Shown piece after piece: positions 53,880 through 62,490 of a stretch of DNA of 64,000 nucleotides. The notes below the pieces were generated by a model that had not been told where the DNA came from, did no database searches, and saw only the letters and a list, made by a program, of their open reading frames with translations. The stretch is from Saprospiraceae bacterium (lineage in GTDB: Bacteria; Bacteroidota; Bacteroidia; Chitinophagales; Saprospiraceae), in NCBI GenBank assembly GCA_020629515.1, contig JAHDDE010000017.1, positions 1 to 64,000 of the forward strand. The letters run 5' to 3'. Numbering within the stretch: position 1 is the stretch's first letter; the number at the start of each line of letters is the position of its first letter. The position numbers and the translations under genes were made by a program.

Positions 53880-54650
53880 TTATCGTATCCGGTTTATAAA
53901 CTCAGAAATAGTTTTTGAAATATCGGATGAGCCATTCAGTGTACGAATAAAAGCACTTCCAATTATGGCACCTTGACTATGATTGCAGGCAGTTTGATAG
54001 GTCTTTTTATCATGAATACCAAAACCAATAAGTCTTGGAGTATTAAGTTTCATTTTTTCTATTCTTTCAAAATAATGTTTTTGAGCATCGTCAATATTAC
54101 TTGATGTACCCGTAATACTTGACTTAGAAACAACATAGATAAATCCATTACTTAGTTCATCCGCTAATCGGATTCTTTCGTCACTGGTTTCAGGTGTGAT
54201 CAAAAATGAAATCTTGACATCGTATTTGTCAAACAAGTCTATATATTCATTCTTATATATGGACATTGGCAGATCTGGGATAATCAGTCCGTCTACTCCA
54301 GATAGCTGACATTGTTTTAAGAATTTTTCAATTCCAAATTGTAACATTTGATTGTAATATCCCATAAGAACTATGGGGACGTTGGATCGTCTTCTCGAGT
54401 CTTTGACTTGTTGAAATAGTAATGATAAGTTCATCCCATTAGAGAGAGCTATAGCACTACTTTTTTGAATAGTCTCACCATCAGCCATTGGATCAGAGTA
54501 GGGGATACCCACTTCTATTAAGTCCACTCCATTTTGTTCTAAGGCATATATTATATCCTGAGTGGCATCTTTTGTAGGATGTCCAGCTGTAAAGTATACA
54601 TTAAGTATTTCTTTGTATTTATTGGAAAAAAGAGATTCTAATCTATTCAT
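53880..54650 (-). CDS. trpA: Tryptophan synthase, alpha subunit
   Basis: It splits indole-3-glycerol phosphate to indole and glyceraldehyde 3-phosphate. I start at the ATG at 54650, which begins MNRLESLF as in the family and lies 4 nt after trpB; a GTG at 54665 overlaps trpB. It has 256 aa. YFTAGHPTKDATQDIIYALEQNGVDLIEVGIPYSDPMADGETIQKSS carries the catalytic Glu and Asp, and VDGLIIPDLP and VSKSSITGTSS follow. It is the last gene of the trp operon and converges on the carboxypeptidase gene with 5 nt between stops. Confidence 0.95.
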   Translation of the reverse strand: MNRLESLFSNKYKEILNVYFTAGHPTKDATQDIIYALEQNGVDLIEVGIPYSDPMADGETIQKSSAIALSNGMNLSLLFQQVKDSRRRSNVPIVLMGYYNQMLQFGIEKFLKQCQLSGVDGLIIPDLPMSIYKNEYIDLFDKYDVKISFLITPETSDERIRLADELSNGFIYVVSKSSITGTSSNIDDAQKHYFERIEKMKLNTPRLIGFGIHDKKTYQTACNHSQGAIIGSAFIRTLNGSSDISKTISEFINRIR

Positions 54651-54654
54651 TTTC

Positions 54655-55863
54655 TTAATGATCACTTTTGTGTTGTCCAGGATTTTTATCTAAATAGGCC
54701 GTAAAGGTTGAAAGATCTTTATCTCCTCTTCCAGATAGGCACATAATTGTGATGTCTTCTTTTTTGAGATGCATTTTATTGAGAGCAGCAAAAGCATGAG
54801 CTGTTTCTAATGCAGGAATAATTCCCTCAATTCTTGAAAGTTCCAATGCCGCTGCCAAAGCTTCTTCATCAGAAGCGTGATAGACTATAGCACGTCCCGA
54901 ACTTATCAGATGCGCGTGCTGTGGCCCAATGCCTGGGTAGTCTAATCCTGCGCTTATCGAGTAGGGCTCAATAATTTGGCCGTCTTCGGTTTGCATTAAT
55001 AATGTTTTACTACCGTGGATTATTCCTATAGTTCCTAAAACTGACGTTGCAGCAGATTCTCCAGAATTGACCCCTTTGCCTGCAGCCTCCACAGCGACAA
55101 TTTTTACATCCAAATCATCGAGGTAGTGATAAAAAGCACCGGCAGCATTACTACCTCCACCAACACATGCTACTATATAATTTGGATTTTCTCTCCCTTC
55201 GTGCTCTTTTAATTGCCATTTCATCTCTTCACTAATCACGGACTGAAATCGAGCTACCATATCTGGATATGGATGTGGACCTACTACTGAACCTATGATA
55301 TAATGGGTATTACTTGGATTATTTATCCAGTCTCGGATTGCCTCGTTTGTTGCATCTTTTAAGGTTTGACTACCGCTCAAGGCAGGTCTGACTTCAGCAC
55401 CTAACATTTTCATCCTTGCGACATTTGGCGCTTGACGACCTATATCGACTTTACCCATATATACGATGCATTCAAGTCCCATAAGTGCGCATACCGTGGC
55501 AGTGGCAACACCATGTTGTCCAGCACCAGTTTCTGCTATTATTCTTTTCTTTCCAAGGCGTTTGGCAAGAAGTATTTGTCCTATGGTATTATTAATTTTA
55601 TGAGCGCCTGTATGATTCAGATCTTCGCGCTTTAGATATATTTTAGTGTTATATTTTTCAGAAAGACGTTTAGCAAAATATAAAGGACTCGGCCTGCCTA
55701 CATAATCTTTAAGAAGTGAGTTAAACTCTTCTTTGAATGAAGCTTCAGCAATTATCTTTTTATATTCTGATTTGAGAGTTTCGATATTACTATGAAGCAT
55801 TTCGGGAATGAAGGCTCCACCAAAGTCGCCATAAAACCCTAGTTCATCTACTTGATATTTCAT
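54655..55863 (-). CDS. trpB: Tryptophan synthase, beta subunit
   Basis: A PLP enzyme that condenses indole and serine. The 402-aa protein has the N-terminal [18 protein letters not shown] lysine K89 in [37 protein letters not shown] for the phosphate loop and LSGRGDKD near the C-terminus. It matches the TrpB1 form that pairs with TrpA. It follows trpF with a 2-nt gap. Confidence 0.97.
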
Positions 55864-55865
55864 GT

Positions 55866-56486
55866 TTAGTTTTGTTTGAATTGGGTGATAAAAGAATCTA
55901 CTAACTTCACATTTTTAAGTCCAGGTTCAATTTCAAATTTGCTATTGATATCTACTCCTATAAATTGTGGATGATTTATTTTTTGTAGGCGATCTGCATC
56001 TTCGGGTCCAATACCACCTGCTAATAAGAATGGCACTTCACCTTCGTACTCAAGTAGTTTATGCCAATCAAATTTTTTACCCGTTCCTCCATGAAAAATG
56101 CTTTTGGTATCAAAAAGGAAATATTCAGAAAATGAATAAGGCAGTGTATCGATAAAATCAAAATCTTTATCAATTCCAAAAGCTTTAATTATTGGCTTGA
56201 TTTTCATAGCTTCTTCGCAAAACTCAATTGACTCGTTGCCATGTAACTGCAGATAGTCCAAATTGCAGTCGTATACATACTGTTGTAGTTCGCCAATACT
56301 TGGATTTACGAATACACCTACCCGCTTAATATTAGGTTTTATATTAATTGATATGTTATTAATAAATCTCTTTGAACCTAAATAGAAGTTTAACCCTATC
56401 ATATCTACAGATAGTCTACATATTTGATTAAGGTTATTCTGTCGATTTATACCACAAACTTTGACTATTCTATCTGTTTTATTCAC
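55866..56486 (-). CDS. trpF: Phosphoribosylanthranilate isomerase
   Basis: A TIM-barrel isomerase that converts phosphoribosylanthranilate to the CdRP intermediate. The 206-aa protein has the N-terminal [13 protein letters not shown] with catalytic Cys, [37 protein letters not shown] and [15 protein letters not shown] hairpin-bearing gap of 56 nt separates it from trpC upstream; the other trp genes are nearly contiguous. Confidence 0.94.
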
Positions 56487-56515
56487 TTAATGAATGAGTT
56501 TTTGTATTGTATTTC

Positions 56516-56543
56516 ATATATCAATAATCTATTATTGATATAT
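56516..56543. repeat. Perfect AT-rich palindrome between trpC and trpF
   Basis: Twelve perfect pairs (56516-56527 with 56532-56543), plus an outer loop of four bases, lie straight after the trpC stop codon. There is no U run after it on the minus strand, so it is not a standard terminator. It could be an RNA processing site, a stability element or a weak protein-binding palindrome. Confidence 0.7.
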
Positions 56544-57340
56544 TAATTAATCTGATTTATAAATTCATTTATTAACTGCTCACACTCTTTCTCAGGAGAA
56601 GCGTGTTTCATGAATCTTTCACCAATCAGAAATCCTTTGAATCCGTATTGGTGCAACATAACTAAAGTTTCTACTTCACTCAAACCACTCTCAGCGATTT
56701 TTGGCAATTCTTGAGGGAGCTTGTCAAACAGTTTTTTGGATCGATTATAGTCAACTTCAAAGGTTGTCAAATCTCTATTATTAACTCCAATTAGACTAAC
56801 ATGTTGACTAAGTTTCTTCAATTGACTCTCACTATGCAATTCTAATAAAACATCCATTCCGAGTTCTTTAGCTATTTGGGCTAATTGGTTTACTTGATGA
56901 GGTTCTAATATCTCTGCGATAAGCAAGATGATATCCGCACCTAATGACTTCGCTTCTAATACCTGATATTCATCAATGATAAATTCTTTTCTTAATAGAG
57001 GAGTGTCTGGTAGATTTTTTCTTACTGTTGATAAGTACTGATTATGCCCCCCAAAGAAAAACTCATCAGTAAGTATCGAGATAGCAGAGGCTCCTGCGTT
57101 TATATAGCCAGTAGTGACTTTGTCTAAGTCTGCATTGAGATTAATATCTTGTTTAGAGGGAGATTTGCGCTTGAACTCCGCTATTATACCGCACTCGTTT
57201 TCTAATTGAAGTCTATTGCTCAGCTTATTGCAAGCCCTATTAAAATAAATAGTTTTTTCGAGGTCTGATGTACTCTTTTGAGCTTTAGCGATTGCTACCT
57301 CCTTTTTTTTATGGGAGACAATTTTATCTAAAATATGCAT
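56543..57340 (-). CDS. trpC: Indole-3-glycerol-phosphate synthase
   Basis: It closes the indole ring from CdRP. The 265-aa protein has the TIM-barrel signature IIAEFKRKSPSKQDIN with the catalytic Lys, ISILTDEFFFGGHNQYL, LLRKEFIIDEYQVLEAKSLGAD, VNNRDLTTFEVD and AESGLSEVETL. It is separate from TrpF, unlike in E. coli. trpG lies immediately upstream with 5 nt between them, where trpD would be expected. Confidence 0.95.
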   Translation of the reverse strand: MHILDKIVSHKKKEVAIAKAQKSTSDLEKTIYFNRACNKLSNRLQLENECGIIAEFKRKSPSKQDINLNADLDKVTTGYINAGASAISILTDEFFFGGHNQYLSTVRKNLPDTPLLRKEFIIDEYQVLEAKSLGADIILLIAEILEPHQVNQLAQIAKELGMDVLLELHSESQLKKLSQHVSLIGVNNRDLTTFEVDYNRSKKLFDKLPQELPKIAESGLSEVETLVMLHQYGFKGFLIGERFMKHASPEKECEQLINEFINQIN

Positions 57341-57345
57341 ATGTA

Positions 57346-57921
57346 CTAATTCGTGATATTTAGAAAATTGCTTAACATGGTGTCTCCATCTGGAGTCAAT
57401 ATTGACTCTGGATGAAATTGTACTCCAAATACATCATATTGTTCATGGCGGATACCCATGATCTCTCCATCTTGATCAGTGCAGGTTATAATTAATTCTT
57501 TGGGTAATGTCTCTTTATCGATTACCCACGAGTGATACCTTCCAGCTTTAAAATTTGAATCAATGTTGCTAAATATTGGGCATGACTTTGATTGGATAAA
57601 ATCCGTTTGTACCCCATGGTACACTTCTGTTAGATTTCTAAGTTTAGCTCCAAATACTTCTCCTATTGCTTGAAGTCCAAGACAAACACCTAATATTTTT
57701 TTTGATTTATAAAAGGTATTTATCACTTTTTTTAGATCACCTGCTTCATCAGGTATACCTGGCCCAGGAGATAAAACCAAATAATCAAATTTGTCCAAAT
57801 GATCAAAATCCAATTCATCATTCCTCTTAACTTCTATAGGTTGATTTAACAATTCCTGAATCGAATGGACGAGGTTGTATGTAAAGGAATCGTAATTATC
57901 AATTATTAAAACTCGATGCAT
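57346..57921 (-). CDS. trpG: Anthranilate synthase component II (glutamine amidotransferase)
   Basis: It provides ammonia from glutamine to TrpE. The 191-aa protein has the nucleophile loop LGVCLGLQAIGEVFG, VLSPGPGIPDEAG, AGRYHSWVID, and the His/Glu pair in VFGVQFHPESILTPDG. It is a stand-alone gene, not fused to TrpD, and follows trpE with a 4-nt gap. PabA (for folate) is the usual alternative, but the operon context supports TrpG; it may also serve folate synthesis. Confidence 0.94.
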   Translation of the reverse strand: MHRVLIIDNYDSFTYNLVHSIQELLNQPIEVKRNDELDFDHLDKFDYLVLSPGPGIPDEAGDLKKVINTFYKSKKILGVCLGLQAIGEVFGAKLRNLTEVYHGVQTDFIQSKSCPIFSNIDSNFKAGRYHSWVIDKETLPKELIITCTDQDGEIMGIRHEQYDVFGVQFHPESILTPDGDTMLSNFLNITN

Positions 57922-57925
57922 TGTA

Positions 57926-59299
57926 TTAAATTTTTTCTGCTAAAGAAATGGCCTTTTTAAGTGCCGCTAATTTATTGTTGACTTCTTGCAGTTCGCTTTG
58001 CTCGTCTGATTTTATCACAATTCCCGCTCCTGCTTGCCTTGTTAGAATACCATTTTGACTTAAAAAGGATCGAATAATTATGGCATGGTTCAGATCCCCA
58101 TTAAAATGAATTAATCCAATACCCCCACCATAAAATGTTCTACCATGTGGTTCGTACTTATCGATTAATTCCATTGCTCTGATCTTTGGAGCACCTGATA
58201 ATGTACCTGCTGGGAATGTATCAGCAAATATTTGATAGTTTTTTGAGTCTTTGCGGAGCTGCCCTGTAACCTTAGAGACAAGATGTATGACATGACTGAA
58301 ATATTGTACTTCTTTGTACTTATCTACTTTGACTTTTTCGGTATTCCTACTAAGATCATTTCTGGCCAAATCAACCAGCATGACATGTTCTGAATTTTCT
58401 TTAGGATCTTTAGTCAGTTTTTCTGCTAATGCCGCATCACCTATTTTATTTCCAGTTCTTCTGAAAGTGCCAGCGATAGGATGTATTTCTGCCATACCTT
58501 CTTTTACGACTAATTGTGCTTCAGGACTTGAGCCGAATATTTTGAAGGTGCCATAGTCAAAGTAAAATAGATAGGGACTTGGGTTGACACTTCTTAAAGC
58601 TCGATATAAGTTGAGTTCATCTCCATCAAATTTAGTATGAAATTTTCTTGACAAAACGATTTGAAAGACATCACCTCGTTGACAGTGTTCTTTGCCTTTT
58701 CTTACCATGTGCAGATAATCATTGTCACTCATATTTGAGTATTCGTCACCGATAGTTTTAAATGGGGCTATGGTGTCATGGGGAGATCGAATGAATTCTA
58801 AAATTTCATCCAAATTGTCATTTTCCCCTTTAGGGACATGGTCTATGATTTTAAGGGTGTCATGAAAATGATCGATCAATATCATATTCCGATAGAAGTC
58901 ATATCTTAAGTCTGGGATATTGTCAATTCTTTTTTGAGCATCCAGTTCTATTTTTTCAAAATATTGAACACTATTATATCCAGAATATCCCACTATAGCG
59001 GACTGCCTCAATATTTCGGTGCTATCTCCTTGGATGTTGATATCGGACATGAAAGACTTGATTTCGTTCGCAATATCAAAATTTGTTTTTTCAGTGCCAT
59101 TAACATTTAGCTGTCCATCCTTAGCTGAAAGAGTGGTTAATGGGTTAAAGCATATATATGATTTGCTATCACGTTTACTGTTGTAGGCTGAACTTTCCAA
59201 CAAAACTACTTGATTATACTTCTGTCTCAACTTAATTAATAAGCTTACGGGGGTATGCAAATCTCCAACTAATTCTACCTCTTTATAATTTACTATCAT
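57926..59299 (-). CDS. trpE: Anthranilate synthase component I
   Basis: It makes anthranilate from chorismate and ammonia. The 457-aa protein has LVELVGD-type N-terminal Trp-binding features, FQIVLSRKFHTKFDGDELNLYRALRSVNPSPYLFYFDYG, IFGSSPEAQLVV, HPIAGTFRRTGN and the chorismate-binding FADTFPAGTLSGAPKIRAMELID and GGGIGLIHFNGDLNHAIIIRSF. It is the first gene of the trp operon, 13 nt after the attenuator U run. Confidence 0.96.
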   Translation of the reverse strand: MIVNYKEVELVGDLHTPVSLLIKLRQKYNQVVLLESSAYNSKRDSKSYICFNPLTTLSAKDGQLNVNGTEKTNFDIANEIKSFMSDINIQGDSTEILRQSAIVGYSGYNSVQYFEKIELDAQKRIDNIPDLRYDFYRNMILIDHFHDTLKIIDHVPKGENDNLDEILEFIRSPHDTIAPFKTIGDEYSNMSDNDYLHMVRKGKEHCQRGDVFQIVLSRKFHTKFDGDELNLYRALRSVNPSPYLFYFDYGTFKIFGSSPEAQLVVKEGMAEIHPIAGTFRRTGNKIGDAALAEKLTKDPKENSEHVMLVDLARNDLSRNTEKVKVDKYKEVQYFSHVIHLVSKVTGQLRKDSKNYQIFADTFPAGTLSGAPKIRAMELIDKYEPHGRTFYGGGIGLIHFNGDLNHAIIIRSFLSQNGILTRQAGAGIVIKSDEQSELQEVNNKLAALKKAISLAEKI

Positions 59300-59311
59300 C
59301 TACGGTTATTC

Positions 59312-59347
59312 AAAAAAAAACGGCTTGTCGGGAAATCGACAAGCCGT
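59312..59347 (-). terminator. Attenuator terminator of the trp operon
   Basis: Read on the minus strand, an 11-bp perfect stem (59337-59347 with 59320-59330) and a 6-nt loop are followed by nine U residues (59312-59320). It lies 13 nt before trpE. Bases 59339-59344 (GCTTGT on the minus strand) in the 5' arm can pair with ATAAGC at 59370-59375 in a competing stem. Confidence 0.85.
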
Positions 59348-59365
59348 ATTATATTTTAATCAATA

Positions 59366-59413
59366 TGGTGCTTATTAAAATCCCTTTAATTTAGAATTTT
59401 CATAAAGCCACCA
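59366..59413 (-). promoter_or_regulatory. Trp attenuator, protective stem (segments 1 and 2)
   Basis: The segment containing both Trp codons and the next leucine (TGGTGGCTT on the minus strand, 59405-59413) can pair with AAGCACCA (59366-59373) with one bulged G. Segment 2 overlaps ATAAGC (59370-59375), which competes for GCTTGT in the terminator. A ribosome stalled at Trp codons would mask segment 1 and free segment 2. All pairing is by eye and the antiterminator is only 6 bp. Confidence 0.6.
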
Positions 59414-59434
59414 ATTTGTTGTTAATCTATTCAT
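59375..59434 (-). CDS. Trp operon leader peptide (trpL-like)
   Basis: A 19-codon ORF on the minus strand starts MNRLTTNWWLYENSK and ends KLKGF, stop. Trp codons 8 and 9 are adjacent. It is followed by a U-tailed terminator and then trpE. An in-frame ATG ten codons upstream would lie at or before the promoter box, so the ATG at 59434 is the more likely start, giving a 5' leader of about 12 nt. The tandem Trp codons in a short ORF before trpE are the classic leader-peptide arrangement. Confidence 0.8.
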   Translation of the reverse strand: MNRLTTNWWLYENSKLKGF

Positions 59435-59450
59435 CTTCGTTAATCTACCA

Positions 59451-59481
59451 CAAATAAAATTCATTTTGATTAATATACCAA
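59451..59481 (-). promoter_or_regulatory. Promoter of the trp operon
   Basis: On the minus strand, TTG (59481-59479) is separated by 20 nt from TTTATTTG (59458-59451), one mismatch from TAnnTTTG. Transcription would start near 59446, about 12 nt before the leader ATG. The -33 element touches the 3' end of the AsmA-like gene. Confidence 0.6.
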
Positions 59482-62400
59482 TTAATTTTCTTTCTTCTTT
59501 TTAAACGGGTTTAGCTTGATCTTTCCTTTGAGAGCATCAATTTTATCTTTCTGGTCTTTAAATATGTCTTCAATATTCTTTTTTAAAGAGTCTGTCTTAC
59601 CTGCTTTAAGGCTATCCAGTATCATTTGACTTTCTTTTGACAATTCTTTTTTCGATGAGTCTATTTGTGTTTTAAGAATTTGTTCTATTGAATCTTTTGT
59701 CTCGTTCACTTCATTTTTCAAAATATTTAAAGAATCCTTGATCTTGTCTTCATAATAGTCCAAAGTATCTTCGACAGTTGATATAATCTCTTGAGTTTTG
59801 TCTGTTATTTCTTGCACAGCACTTTCTTTGATACTTTCAACTACATCACCCTTCCTAATAGCTATATCTTTAATTTTGACTTTGGGTTTAAACATTTTAC
59901 CCTGTAGAGTTAAAAATAATTCTAGCTTGACATCGCCAGGAATTGAAGCTATTTTTTTAGTGATTCCAGATTTATCCTGAATCAGGTTGAGTAAGTTTTG
60001 AGCGTCCAACTTACTTTTGGGGATACTCAATATCACATCGTAGTCTATCTCCTGATCGAAGCTATGAGATCCAGAGTATCTTATATCGATATCATTTTTA
60101 TGAAGTGTTATTTCTTGGACTATTACTTTGCCATCTTCAACTAAAAAGTACTTTTCAGTATCGTCTATACTCCATGATTTACTTAATACTTTTGAACTCC
60201 CTATAAAATTTAATAAAGAATCTATAGGAGCAAAACTTGTTATAGCACCATTATAAGTAGCTATTTCACCATATGAACTCAACGTATTCAAGATAGGAAA
60301 ATATTGAGCATCTAAAGCTGAACCCCATTTAAGTGCTCCACTATATTCGCCTTCTAAAAATGATGCGAAAGGGAGAAGTTTTTCAAAAAACAATAATTGT
60401 TTAGCCGTTTCTTCAAAAGAGATATTTTCAATGATAATATCAAAATCCACCTTTGGTGAAGTAGGTATTTGGGAATTAAAAGAACCAATTAGTCCTATTT
60501 TGCCACCAAATAGATTGGCCTTATTTTCCAGTTTAATAACCTGATTATCTAATGACATGTCGCCTAATAGTTTAGACAAGTTAATACCTTGATAGCTTAT
60601 TTTTTCTATGTTATAATCTACGTCTATTTTGATATTGCCAGGAATGTTGGAGCTGGCTTGCTCGCCTTCAGATTCACTGCCTTGTACAAATCTATCTAAT
60701 TCTATTTTATCTGAAAGGACTGAGACCCTTCCCCGCAGAGTATCATTATTAAGACCATATTGGATTAAATTTTTCAGCTCAGCGGTCCCCTTTAATTTAT
60801 TATTATTAATTGACTGGATCTCGTATTCTATCAAAGTGTTACTATCTGATAAGTAACCTATGGATTGTATCTGCGATATATCGTAATTATCATAATTGAT
60901 TTGGTCAATAGTAACGTCAGTTTTGATATTAAACTTCGGGATTTGATAGACTGTCATAGAAGTATCTGTATCTCCAGATAGAAGATCTAAATCGATCTGA
61001 GCTATAGATGTATTATTTGTGCCTTTGATATTTTGGGTGGAATTTAAGATGCTTACAATATCCTCTAAAGTACCACTCGTGAATAGTGCCTTTATACCAG
61101 GATAATTCAAATCTTCAATATTATATTCTACAGATTGATCTTTATTCTTGATATCTAACTGATCCATCCTTATCTCAATAAGGCCCTTTTTCGAATATAT
61201 ATCTGATGCTAAGAAGTCGATTTTGAAATTCTCATCATTTAAGACAATTTTATTCTTTTCCGCTAAAAATGAGGTATTCAAGGATACTTCTCCCTGTAGA
61301 ATACCTGACATCTCCTGCTCTTGTAAGGATAGAACCTCTCTGATGTCGCTTAAATCAATATATGTATTAAGTCTACTTGAAGAACTAATACCTATAGAAT
61401 TACTTGTCAAATTTATATCCCCACCTATAAAATTACTTCCACTTTTGATATCTATGTGAGAGAGTAGTATTTGATCAAAAGCATTGTTCGGATTAGAATT
61501 GTGTGCTTTGATATTTATTCCTATTTGTTCTATTTCTTTTGTTAAACCAGAATATGACAACATTCCATCCTTAATTTCTACTTCTACTTCGTAATCAGGA
61601 TATTCATTCAGTGTGCTACCGTCTATGCTTCCTTTTATATCAAATTGGCCATCGGTTTCTAATGATTGATAATTGTGTTTATATAAATCAGGTATGATCG
61701 AGAAAAGTGATTTAATGGGGGCTTCAGGAGCAGAGAAATCCGATTGATAGTTAATGGCTTCTTCGCCGATATCGATAGAGACATTAAAATTAAGTAACAG
61801 ATCATTAGCATACAATGAAGCATTGTTTATGGCTACATGATCAAAATCCCCATTTATGTTCAGAATATGTTCAGTTTTAATGTCAATTGGAAGATCTGAT
61901 AGATAAGTGTTAATATCTGCCGTTAAATTATTCTTCAATGATAAATCACCATTGCTGTAAAATAGGGTTGATGTCCCAACCAGATTATCCAAATTATAAA
62001 AGGAATTGGACTTCTGATCCTCCCAACTCAATGATATATTGTCAAGACTAATCTTATTGAAAATAAGGTTAATATCAATTTCTGATTGATCACCTTTTGT
62101 TTCTTGAGTTATTGTATAATTGTCATCGTTGTGCCAGCTTACTAAAGATAGTTGTCCATCTTTGAGTATTATCTCTTCTATTGTAATAGGAGTTGTATTG
62201 CGAAGAGCCTGAAGTAAATTTACCTTTATCCCAAACTCTTTTAATTCCAATAGTTTAGGAGCTTGTTCTTCTTTTACAACAATATCAAATAATGAAATTC
62301 TAAGATTAGGTAAACTTCTTAAAAGTGATACATCAGCATCCTCATAGGATAATTCTGCAGTGATATTCTTATTTATTTCTAATACTACCTTTTGGATAAT

Positions 62401-62490
62401 TTTTTCTTTATTGAATTCTACATAGGCCAATAGTCCAATTAAAAGAAATACAATAAATCCCAAAAGCCGAAAAATCCATTTTTTCATCAC
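59482..62490 (-). CDS. AsmA-like envelope protein with C-terminal coiled coil
   Basis: A 1002-aa protein with one N-terminal membrane helix (WIFRLLGFIVFLLIGLLAYVEF) followed by an AsmA/DUF748-like beta-rich repeated body: PNLRISLFDIVVKEE, IEEIILKDGQLSLVSW, NLFGGKIGLIGSFNS, EYSGALKWGSALDAQYFPILNTLSSYGEIATYNG. About 890-1002 form a long charged helical tail rich in KD and ES heptads ending KKKKEN. AsmA-family proteins are thought to be bridge-like lipid transporters between membranes. The usual AsmA C-terminal AsmA-2 segment (VEDGKVIVQEITLHKNDIDIRYSGSH) is present. An ATG follows immediately at the second codon. Confidence 0.82.
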   Translation of the reverse strand: MMKKWIFRLLGFIVFLLIGLLAYVEFNKEKIIQKVVLEINKNITAELSYEDADVSLLRSLPNLRISLFDIVVKEEQAPKLLELKEFGIKVNLLQALRNTTPITIEEIILKDGQLSLVSWHNDDNYTITQETKGDQSEIDINLIFNKISLDNISLSWEDQKSNSFYNLDNLVGTSTLFYSNGDLSLKNNLTADINTYLSDLPIDIKTEHILNINGDFDHVAINNASLYANDLLLNFNVSIDIGEEAINYQSDFSAPEAPIKSLFSIIPDLYKHNYQSLETDGQFDIKGSIDGSTLNEYPDYEVEVEIKDGMLSYSGLTKEIEQIGINIKAHNSNPNNAFDQILLSHIDIKSGSNFIGGDINLTSNSIGISSSSRLNTYIDLSDIREVLSLQEQEMSGILQGEVSLNTSFLAEKNKIVLNDENFKIDFLASDIYSKKGLIEIRMDQLDIKNKDQSVEYNIEDLNYPGIKALFTSGTLEDIVSILNSTQNIKGTNNTSIAQIDLDLLSGDTDTSMTVYQIPKFNIKTDVTIDQINYDNYDISQIQSIGYLSDSNTLIEYEIQSINNNKLKGTAELKNLIQYGLNNDTLRGRVSVLSDKIELDRFVQGSESEGEQASSNIPGNIKIDVDYNIEKISYQGINLSKLLGDMSLDNQVIKLENKANLFGGKIGLIGSFNSQIPTSPKVDFDIIIENISFEETAKQLLFFEKLLPFASFLEGEYSGALKWGSALDAQYFPILNTLSSYGEIATYNGAITSFAPIDSLLNFIGSSKVLSKSWSIDDTEKYFLVEDGKVIVQEITLHKNDIDIRYSGSHSFDQEIDYDVILSIPKSKLDAQNLLNLIQDKSGITKKIASIPGDVKLELFLTLQGKMFKPKVKIKDIAIRKGDVVESIKESAVQEITDKTQEIISTVEDTLDYYEDKIKDSLNILKNEVNETKDSIEQILKTQIDSSKKELSKESQMILDSLKAGKTDSLKKNIEDIFKDQKDKIDALKGKIKLNPFKKKKEN

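Follow-up and report, generated by a model that had tools for sequence, protein, structure and literature searches.

The trpL leader of E. coli combines tandem Trp codons with a protector stem, an antiterminator and a terminator. In Bacteroidetes the described counterpart is Bacteroid-trp (RF01692), listed in Rfam as 'Bacteroidete tryptophan peptide leader RNA', which stands before trpE and has a short ORF with Trp codons, a long protector stem and a terminal GGCUUGUC (PMC2864571). Table 1 of that publication marks the motif "y" for RNA, "y" for cis-regulatory and "n" for switch. The motif has been compared with the E. coli Trp leader and noted before the trp operon of Flavobacterium psychrophilum (PMC6414381). 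Strong clues for leader-peptide attenuation before amino-acid operons of that species are likewise reported (PMC9723704), and in Bacteroides thetaiotaomicron short ORFs that recall leader peptides have been noted (PMC7366714). The Rfam structure of RF01692 consists of the protector stem only, ends within the 5' arm of the terminator and includes no antiterminator. We found no published description of an antiterminator in the Bacteroid-trp leader, which the supplements of PMC2864571 may show. A further Trp attenuator, trpL (rnTrpL) of Sinorhizobium meliloti, has a transcript that begins at the ATG of the leader (PMC7298713).

The region upstream of trpE in the window (the whole stretch of 64,000 nt of Saprospiraceae DNA analysed here) very probably holds a ribosome-mediated transcription attenuator of the trp genes and a divergent relative of the Bacteroid-trp leader, as its sequence and modelled folding suggest. 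The leader is compact, lies on the minus strand, as do all features given below, and occupies the 182 nt gap between the large upstream ORF (59482-62490), which ends at 59482, and the ATG of trpE at 59299. The leader peptide ORF (59375-59434) has 19 codons, encodes MNRLTTNWWLYENSKLKGF followed by a stop codon, and is kept in relatives. Its two adjacent Trp codons (59408-59413) would act as the sensor. In the MFE fold of 59446-59311, segment 1 (59405-59413) forms the 5' strand of a protector stem of 8 bp with one bulged G, the 3' strand being AAGCACCA (59366-59373); a second hairpin inside this stem pairs 59400-59393 with 59384-59377. An intrinsic terminator hairpin of 11 bp with a 6-nt loop (59320-59347) is found in the MFE fold as well as along the fold path, and is followed by a run of eight unpaired T (59312-59319), a ninth T (59320) being paired. 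The energy of 59446-59311 is -35 versus -18.9 (sd 3.4) in shuffled sequences (z -4.8), which beats all 200 dinucleotide shuffles. The ORF, adjacent Trp codons, stems, terminator and promoter-like boxes of the original prediction are thus all present; its terminator of 11 bp with a T run before trpE likewise stands, and only the spacing to the trpE ATG has to be corrected from 13 to 12 nt.

Similarity to E. coli trpL is one of layout and concerns the tandem Trp codons, the three stems and their logic. By contrast, the last codons and the stop codon of the window's leader belong to the antiterminator strand, this candidate antiterminator extends past the 5' arm of the terminator into its loop and 3' arm, and the leader has no Shine-Dalgarno sequence. 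The organism's distance from E. coli is no anomaly, since the leader already constitutes an Rfam family of Bacteroidetes. The window differs from S. meliloti trpL in its predicted leader of 11-12 nt, its phylum and its promoter type.

Comparison with RF01692 indicates a divergent relative of this known family. The window aligns to all 131 positions of the model, at 24.3 bits versus a cut-off of 49 (E 1.6), so that a search at the gathering cut-off gives no match in the window; ATGAA, GGTGG, AGCAC and GGCUUGUC are in place, and several stem pairs are not standard. The low score and the presence of two Trp codons distinguish the window from RF01692 members; three or more Trp codons are found in 117 of the 146 leaders compared, its own included. 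With filters so strict that weak matches are lost, no RF01692 match at E<=0.01 appears in the window's genome. Those filters leave such matches in 25 of 199 genomes of its family, four of these above the cut-off, and in 34 of 296 genomes across the phylum, 27 above the cut-off. It is through the 25 matches in the family, with four above the cut-off, that relatives link the window's leader to RF01692 members. By coordinates, 21 of the 25 lie within 200 nt upstream of a trpE match, and for two others a trpE start following the match was identified on the DNA itself. Among the matches seemingly away from trpE, one precedes another trpE start that runs off the contig and one runs out of its contig; in a third (G146) another ORF lies between leader and trpE. 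This ORF (L104, G146:C168:136700-137932) is of unknown family and would share the control of the attenuator. The window's own leader is directly upstream of trpE, and the named relatives are Saprospirales, Saprospiraceae, Chitinophaga and an uncultured Bacteroidetes bacterium. The leader looks like the same switch as the RF01692 leaders, and it is ordinary for its group. Other Rfam matches at the locus (GibS, PyrR, greA, MicC and others) are far below their cut-offs and were discarded.

The arrangement before trpE is widely kept among relatives. Of 199 genomes of its family, 154 have a trpE match at E<=1e-60. We analysed 156 upstream regions, 149 from those genomes including the window (29 loci returned by the trpE search and 120 fetched separately) and seven from named genomes (uncultured Saprospiraceae, uncultured Bacteroidetes bacterium, Chitinophaga). 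Three further loci from named genomes were contigs already in the set and were not recounted, and L018 was replaced by L038 from the same contig. A short ORF with adjacent Trp codons (WW) precedes trpE in 146 of the 156 regions, the window included, and 117 of these ORFs have WWW; a terminator by the strict rule follows the ORF in 113 of the 146. Ten regions are without WW. Two of them are shortened by the contig end (L028, L143), four have W-X-W in its place (L068, L088, L108, L126), in L116 a WW leader lies about 600 nt upstream of trpE (read in L214), and in three (L067, L085, L165) no WW leader was seen in the upstream region. The four W-X-W leaders read W-R-W or W-C-W and keep the terminator and the position; L108 and L126 are near-identical. 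In genome G091 (L213, G091:C64:19000-22700) trpE and trpG are separated by a gene that by eye resembles one for an outer-membrane protein, and a separate, complete Trp attenuator, its leader containing WCWW and followed by a terminator, precedes trpG. This second copy before a displaced trpG is good evidence that the element serves trp genes.

The leader's position in a 182-nt gap directly behind a large ORF could also mean that the terminator belongs to this upstream gene (59482-62490) and that the WW ORF arose by chance. We consider this hardly credible. When the window's 400-nt upstream region was dinucleotide-shuffled 20,000 times, a short ORF with two adjacent Trp codons arose in 26 of the shuffles, and in none was it accompanied by a terminator behind it. 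Among 152 sufficiently long regions a WW ORF was present in 139 and was combined with a terminator in 106, versus 34 and 0 of 3040 shuffles, the stretch allowed for the terminator being 30 nt longer in the real regions. Moreover, the arrangement accompanies trpE across the family and recurs before the displaced trpG.

A trp leader controlled independently of translation, through a tryptophan-binding RNA or a protein such as TRAP, would contain a terminator and an alternative helix of the same appearance, and the short ORF would be incidental. Such a switch is very improbable here. The WW ORF is kept in 146 of 156 regions, and four of the exceptions retain an in-frame W-X-W despite a mean column identity of 46% in alignment A1. 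The only invariant columns of A1 are those of one Trp codon and one T of the T run, and a conserved ligand pocket is not apparent. We therefore retain leader-peptide attenuation before trpE, for which conservation, covariation and the Rfam family all argue.

Downstream of trpE (57926-59299), the first gene of the presumably regulated cluster, trpG, trpC, trpF, trpB and trpA follow down to 53880. For each of these six ORFs the best NCBIfam family is the named trp family or a fusion containing it. The matches of trpG, trpC, trpB and trpA are above a curated cut-off; trpE (416 versus 518 bits) and trpF are below theirs, with no better name for either. The cluster (53880-59299) is without trpD between trpG and trpC, and the genome's single trpD match lies by itself on a different contig (L187, G000:C18:22194-23165). 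In the approximately 200 nt before this lone trpD neither adjacent Trp codons nor an obvious terminator were seen by eye, and it may escape attenuation.

The promoter is a consensus match only. TTG (59479-59481), a possible -33 element, adjoins the stop codon of the upstream ORF; 20 nt past it lies the -7-like element TTTATTTG (59451-59458), which agrees with TAnnTTTG at five of the six fixed positions. An overlapping TATTTGTG, 2 nt further on, scores equally against TAnnTTTG. In Flavobacterium johnsoniae the -33 motif is much less evident than the -7 element, and 4-5 nt separate the -7 box from the start site (PMC6847099). By this spacing rule transcription is predicted to start at 59445-59446, and the window's leader of about 12 nt fits the reported distance. 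The best box upstream of the Trp codons is a full TAnnTTTG in 66 of 143 scored regions (window included) versus 179 of 2860 shuffles. Bacteroidetes are naturally without Shine-Dalgarno sequences, and initiation benefits from A at -3 and -6 (PMC6847099; PMC3155529). The window has ACGAAG before the leader ATG, with A at both positions. The suggestion that ribosome entry would have to be unusual for want of a Shine-Dalgarno sequence thus finds no support for this gene, the absence of such a sequence being normal in the phylum. The description "leaderless-like" does not suit the window with its predicted leader of 11-12 nt, and may fit some of the relatives instead.

The distance from an exact TAnnTTTG to the first in-frame ATG is bimodal over 64 regions: it is 0-8 nt in 23, 9-15 nt in none and at least 16 nt in 41. 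In 13 of the 64 it is exactly 4-5 nt, which places the predicted start site on the A of the ATG. Leaders with TAnnTTTG 4-5 nt before the ATG include L022, L023, L024, L025, L027, L036 and L070, among others. A looser -7 box blurs the gap, with 6 of 121 at 9-15 nt. The control is thin, as 121 long ORFs yielded only 10 exact boxes, none of them within 8 nt; 3 of 146 leaders gave no in-frame ATG. Judged by these spacings, some relatives may have leaderless leader messages, a predicted likeness of this subset to S. meliloti trpL (PMC7298713). Published maps of Bacteroidetes transcripts show few leaderless messages: 5.5% are reported in PMC9723704, approximately 3.7% of 5' UTRs are <10 nt according to PMC7366714, and 87% of leaders are >10 nt according to PMC6847099.

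At p<=0.05, the protector pairing (segment 1 with segment 2) is better than in shuffles for 43% of 113 regions; for the window p is 0.16. A first test of the antiterminator, with the terminator 5' arm alone as the target, gave a weak signal (10% of the 113 at p<=0.05). Relatives viewed side by side suggest the reason, namely that the pairing is longer than the 5' arm: the end of the leader, its stop codon and the following AGC match the 5' arm, the loop and the first bases of the 3' arm in one register. In the window, GGGATTTTAATAAGC (59370-59384), which comprises the last leader codons, the stop codon and AAGC, is the candidate antiterminator strand according to the fold path with a stalled ribosome and the covariation in the family. 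Read from 59384 to 59370, it forms 12 pairs in the terminator region, at 59344-59330 as judged by eye. The competing stem of the original prediction accordingly exists, and calling it weak understated the pairing, of which that stem is a part.

The later target (5' arm, loop and 5 nt) was picked after this reading by eye, and the hypothesis was formed on part of the same data. With it, 58% of the 113 regions beat shuffles at p<=0.05, and 47% do so for the tip. Each leader prefers its own terminator tip: the pairing energy summed over the 113 regions is -1173.9 versus -742.4 (sd 25.4) with tips exchanged, and the lowest of 5000 permutations reached -842.3. Alignment A1 comprises 91 of 110 non-redundant regions with a terminator, with the paired columns chosen by eye; 19 regions with terminators unlike GGCTTG or poor alignment were left out by eye and kept in the tests on 113 regions. 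The terminator hairpin of A1 is paired in 99.2% of cells, a circular figure as the set was selected for terminators. In the tip helix 77.1% of cells are paired, compared to 68.0% in shuffles and 31.3-46.3% for slid partners, and 72 cells are changed on both sides versus 32.6 in shuffles. The covariation score of the tip is 0.331 versus at most 0.113 for slid partners, which are the sole control for relatedness. The inner half of the helix is poorly supported (59.1% paired versus 56.7% in one slid register). Taken singly, the window gives p 0.02 for the longer pairing and 0.165 for the tip, and its congener L003 gives 0.115 and 0.10. The case for the proposed antiterminator is therefore one made by the family, not by a single sequence.

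The same pairing between leader end and terminator loop is common to the window's leader and RF01692 members of other families, which come nearest to an independent check. The check took the best 20 RF01692 matches of the phylum, which belong to other families of the class (19 to f5, one to f11) and are much alike. Three of them had no terminator by the rule and were unscored; of the remaining 17, 16 gave a pairing superior to that of shuffles at p<=0.05. Most of the best 20 leaders end in GTCGTGA and have terminator tips reading TCACGAC, i.e., the same pairing with the stop codon included. Exchange tests on these loci are modest, both for the apex (-196.6 versus a mean of -184.7, sd 3.1; lowest permutation -198.7) and for the longer target (-276.7 versus -269.7, sd 3.4; lowest permutation -283.2), at least one permutation having beaten the true pairing.

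Columns 146-150 of A1, the partners of the columns with the best covariation, lie in the loop and are unpaired in the hairpin; the inner helix, which would exclude the hairpin, is the poorly supported part. Both observations would also suit a pseudoknot that coexists with the terminator or stabilises it. We regard a pseudoknot in place of an antiterminator as unlikely, as the pairing continues into stem columns 151-152 and into 5'-arm column 139, where the inner column pair 80:139 has 13 cells changed on both sides, and a helix of that length should exclude the hairpin. Furthermore, if the terminator were stabilised in this way and its partner masked by a ribosome at the stop codon, the response would have the wrong sense for control by tryptophan.

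In our preferred reading as an antiterminator, the switch would operate as follows. With no ribosome on the leader, the Trp-codon segment would pair with AAGCACCA and the terminator would form. With ample charged tRNA-Trp, a ribosome at the leader stop codon would cover the antiterminator strand and the terminator would form as well. A ribosome stalled at the Trp codons would break the protector stem, upon which the leader end, the stop codon and AAGC would pair with the 5' arm, the loop and the first 3'-arm bases of the terminator, and RNA polymerase would continue into trpE.

The modelled folding order has the sense that is right for control by tryptophan. When a ribosome at the first or second Trp codon defines the 5' boundary, the pairing of the antiterminator strand is the MFE structure from 8 of the 28 terminator bases onwards, all 12 pairs are present at 16-24 bases, and the terminator takes over only once its hairpin is nearly complete. 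With a ribosome at the stop codon, the terminator alone forms. In the ribosome-free case the protector is the sole structure until 10 terminator bases are out, after which mixed structures appear; at 20 bases the MFE passes briefly to the 12-pair antiterminator, and terminator and protector together win from 22. As the finished terminator is more stable than the antiterminator at equilibrium, the choice between them must be kinetic. Tip covariation and fold path, both computational, point to antiterminator and terminator as mutually exclusive structures, the inner helix being the weak part of this argument. Anatomy, conservation, covariation of the helix tip and folding order were obtained by computation; ribosome stalling, the response to tryptophan and the site of transcription start are what we infer.

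We give roughly even chances to a fuller reading, in which the leader end and stop codon would form one long helix with the terminator 5' arm, loop and first 3'-arm bases. RNA pairing would therefore set the last residues of the peptide, and the switch would directly read where the terminating ribosome stands. The same reading takes a subset of relatives to be leaderless, packing transcription start, translation start and attenuation together.

A search with R1 in the window's genome returned 24 places at E<=1, the first being the leader itself and the second the opposite strand of its terminator. The other 22 places have no ATG-started ORF with WW or W-X-W in a script scan, one of them having been read further, and most carry hairpins with T runs. 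A WWW string at one of the places is out of frame in an apparent coding region. R1 matches in the genomes of relatives are partly so by construction. Several of these genomes have weaker matches (approximately 43-53 bits) away from trpE, e.g., G122:C8:8818-8949 and G009:C172:16964-17097, which may be attenuators of other amino acids or plain terminators with a GGCTTGTC-like arm.

That leader-peptide attenuation occurs in the phylum is already inferred in the literature; what the locus and its relatives add is a fuller candidate mechanism than the family record holds. A curated leader family is extended into the window's own family, with Saprospiraceae among the named relatives. The Rfam model finds only 4 of 199 genomes of this family above its cut-off under strict filters, although 146 of 156 upstream regions of trpE have a WW leader. 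The pairing described here may be the half of the switch that has been missing, a candidate antiterminator in which the leader stop codon would take part and which is testable by point mutations. The relatives with a promoter box close to the leader ATG likewise form a limited group in which leaderless leader peptides may occur, within a phylum without Shine-Dalgarno sequences.
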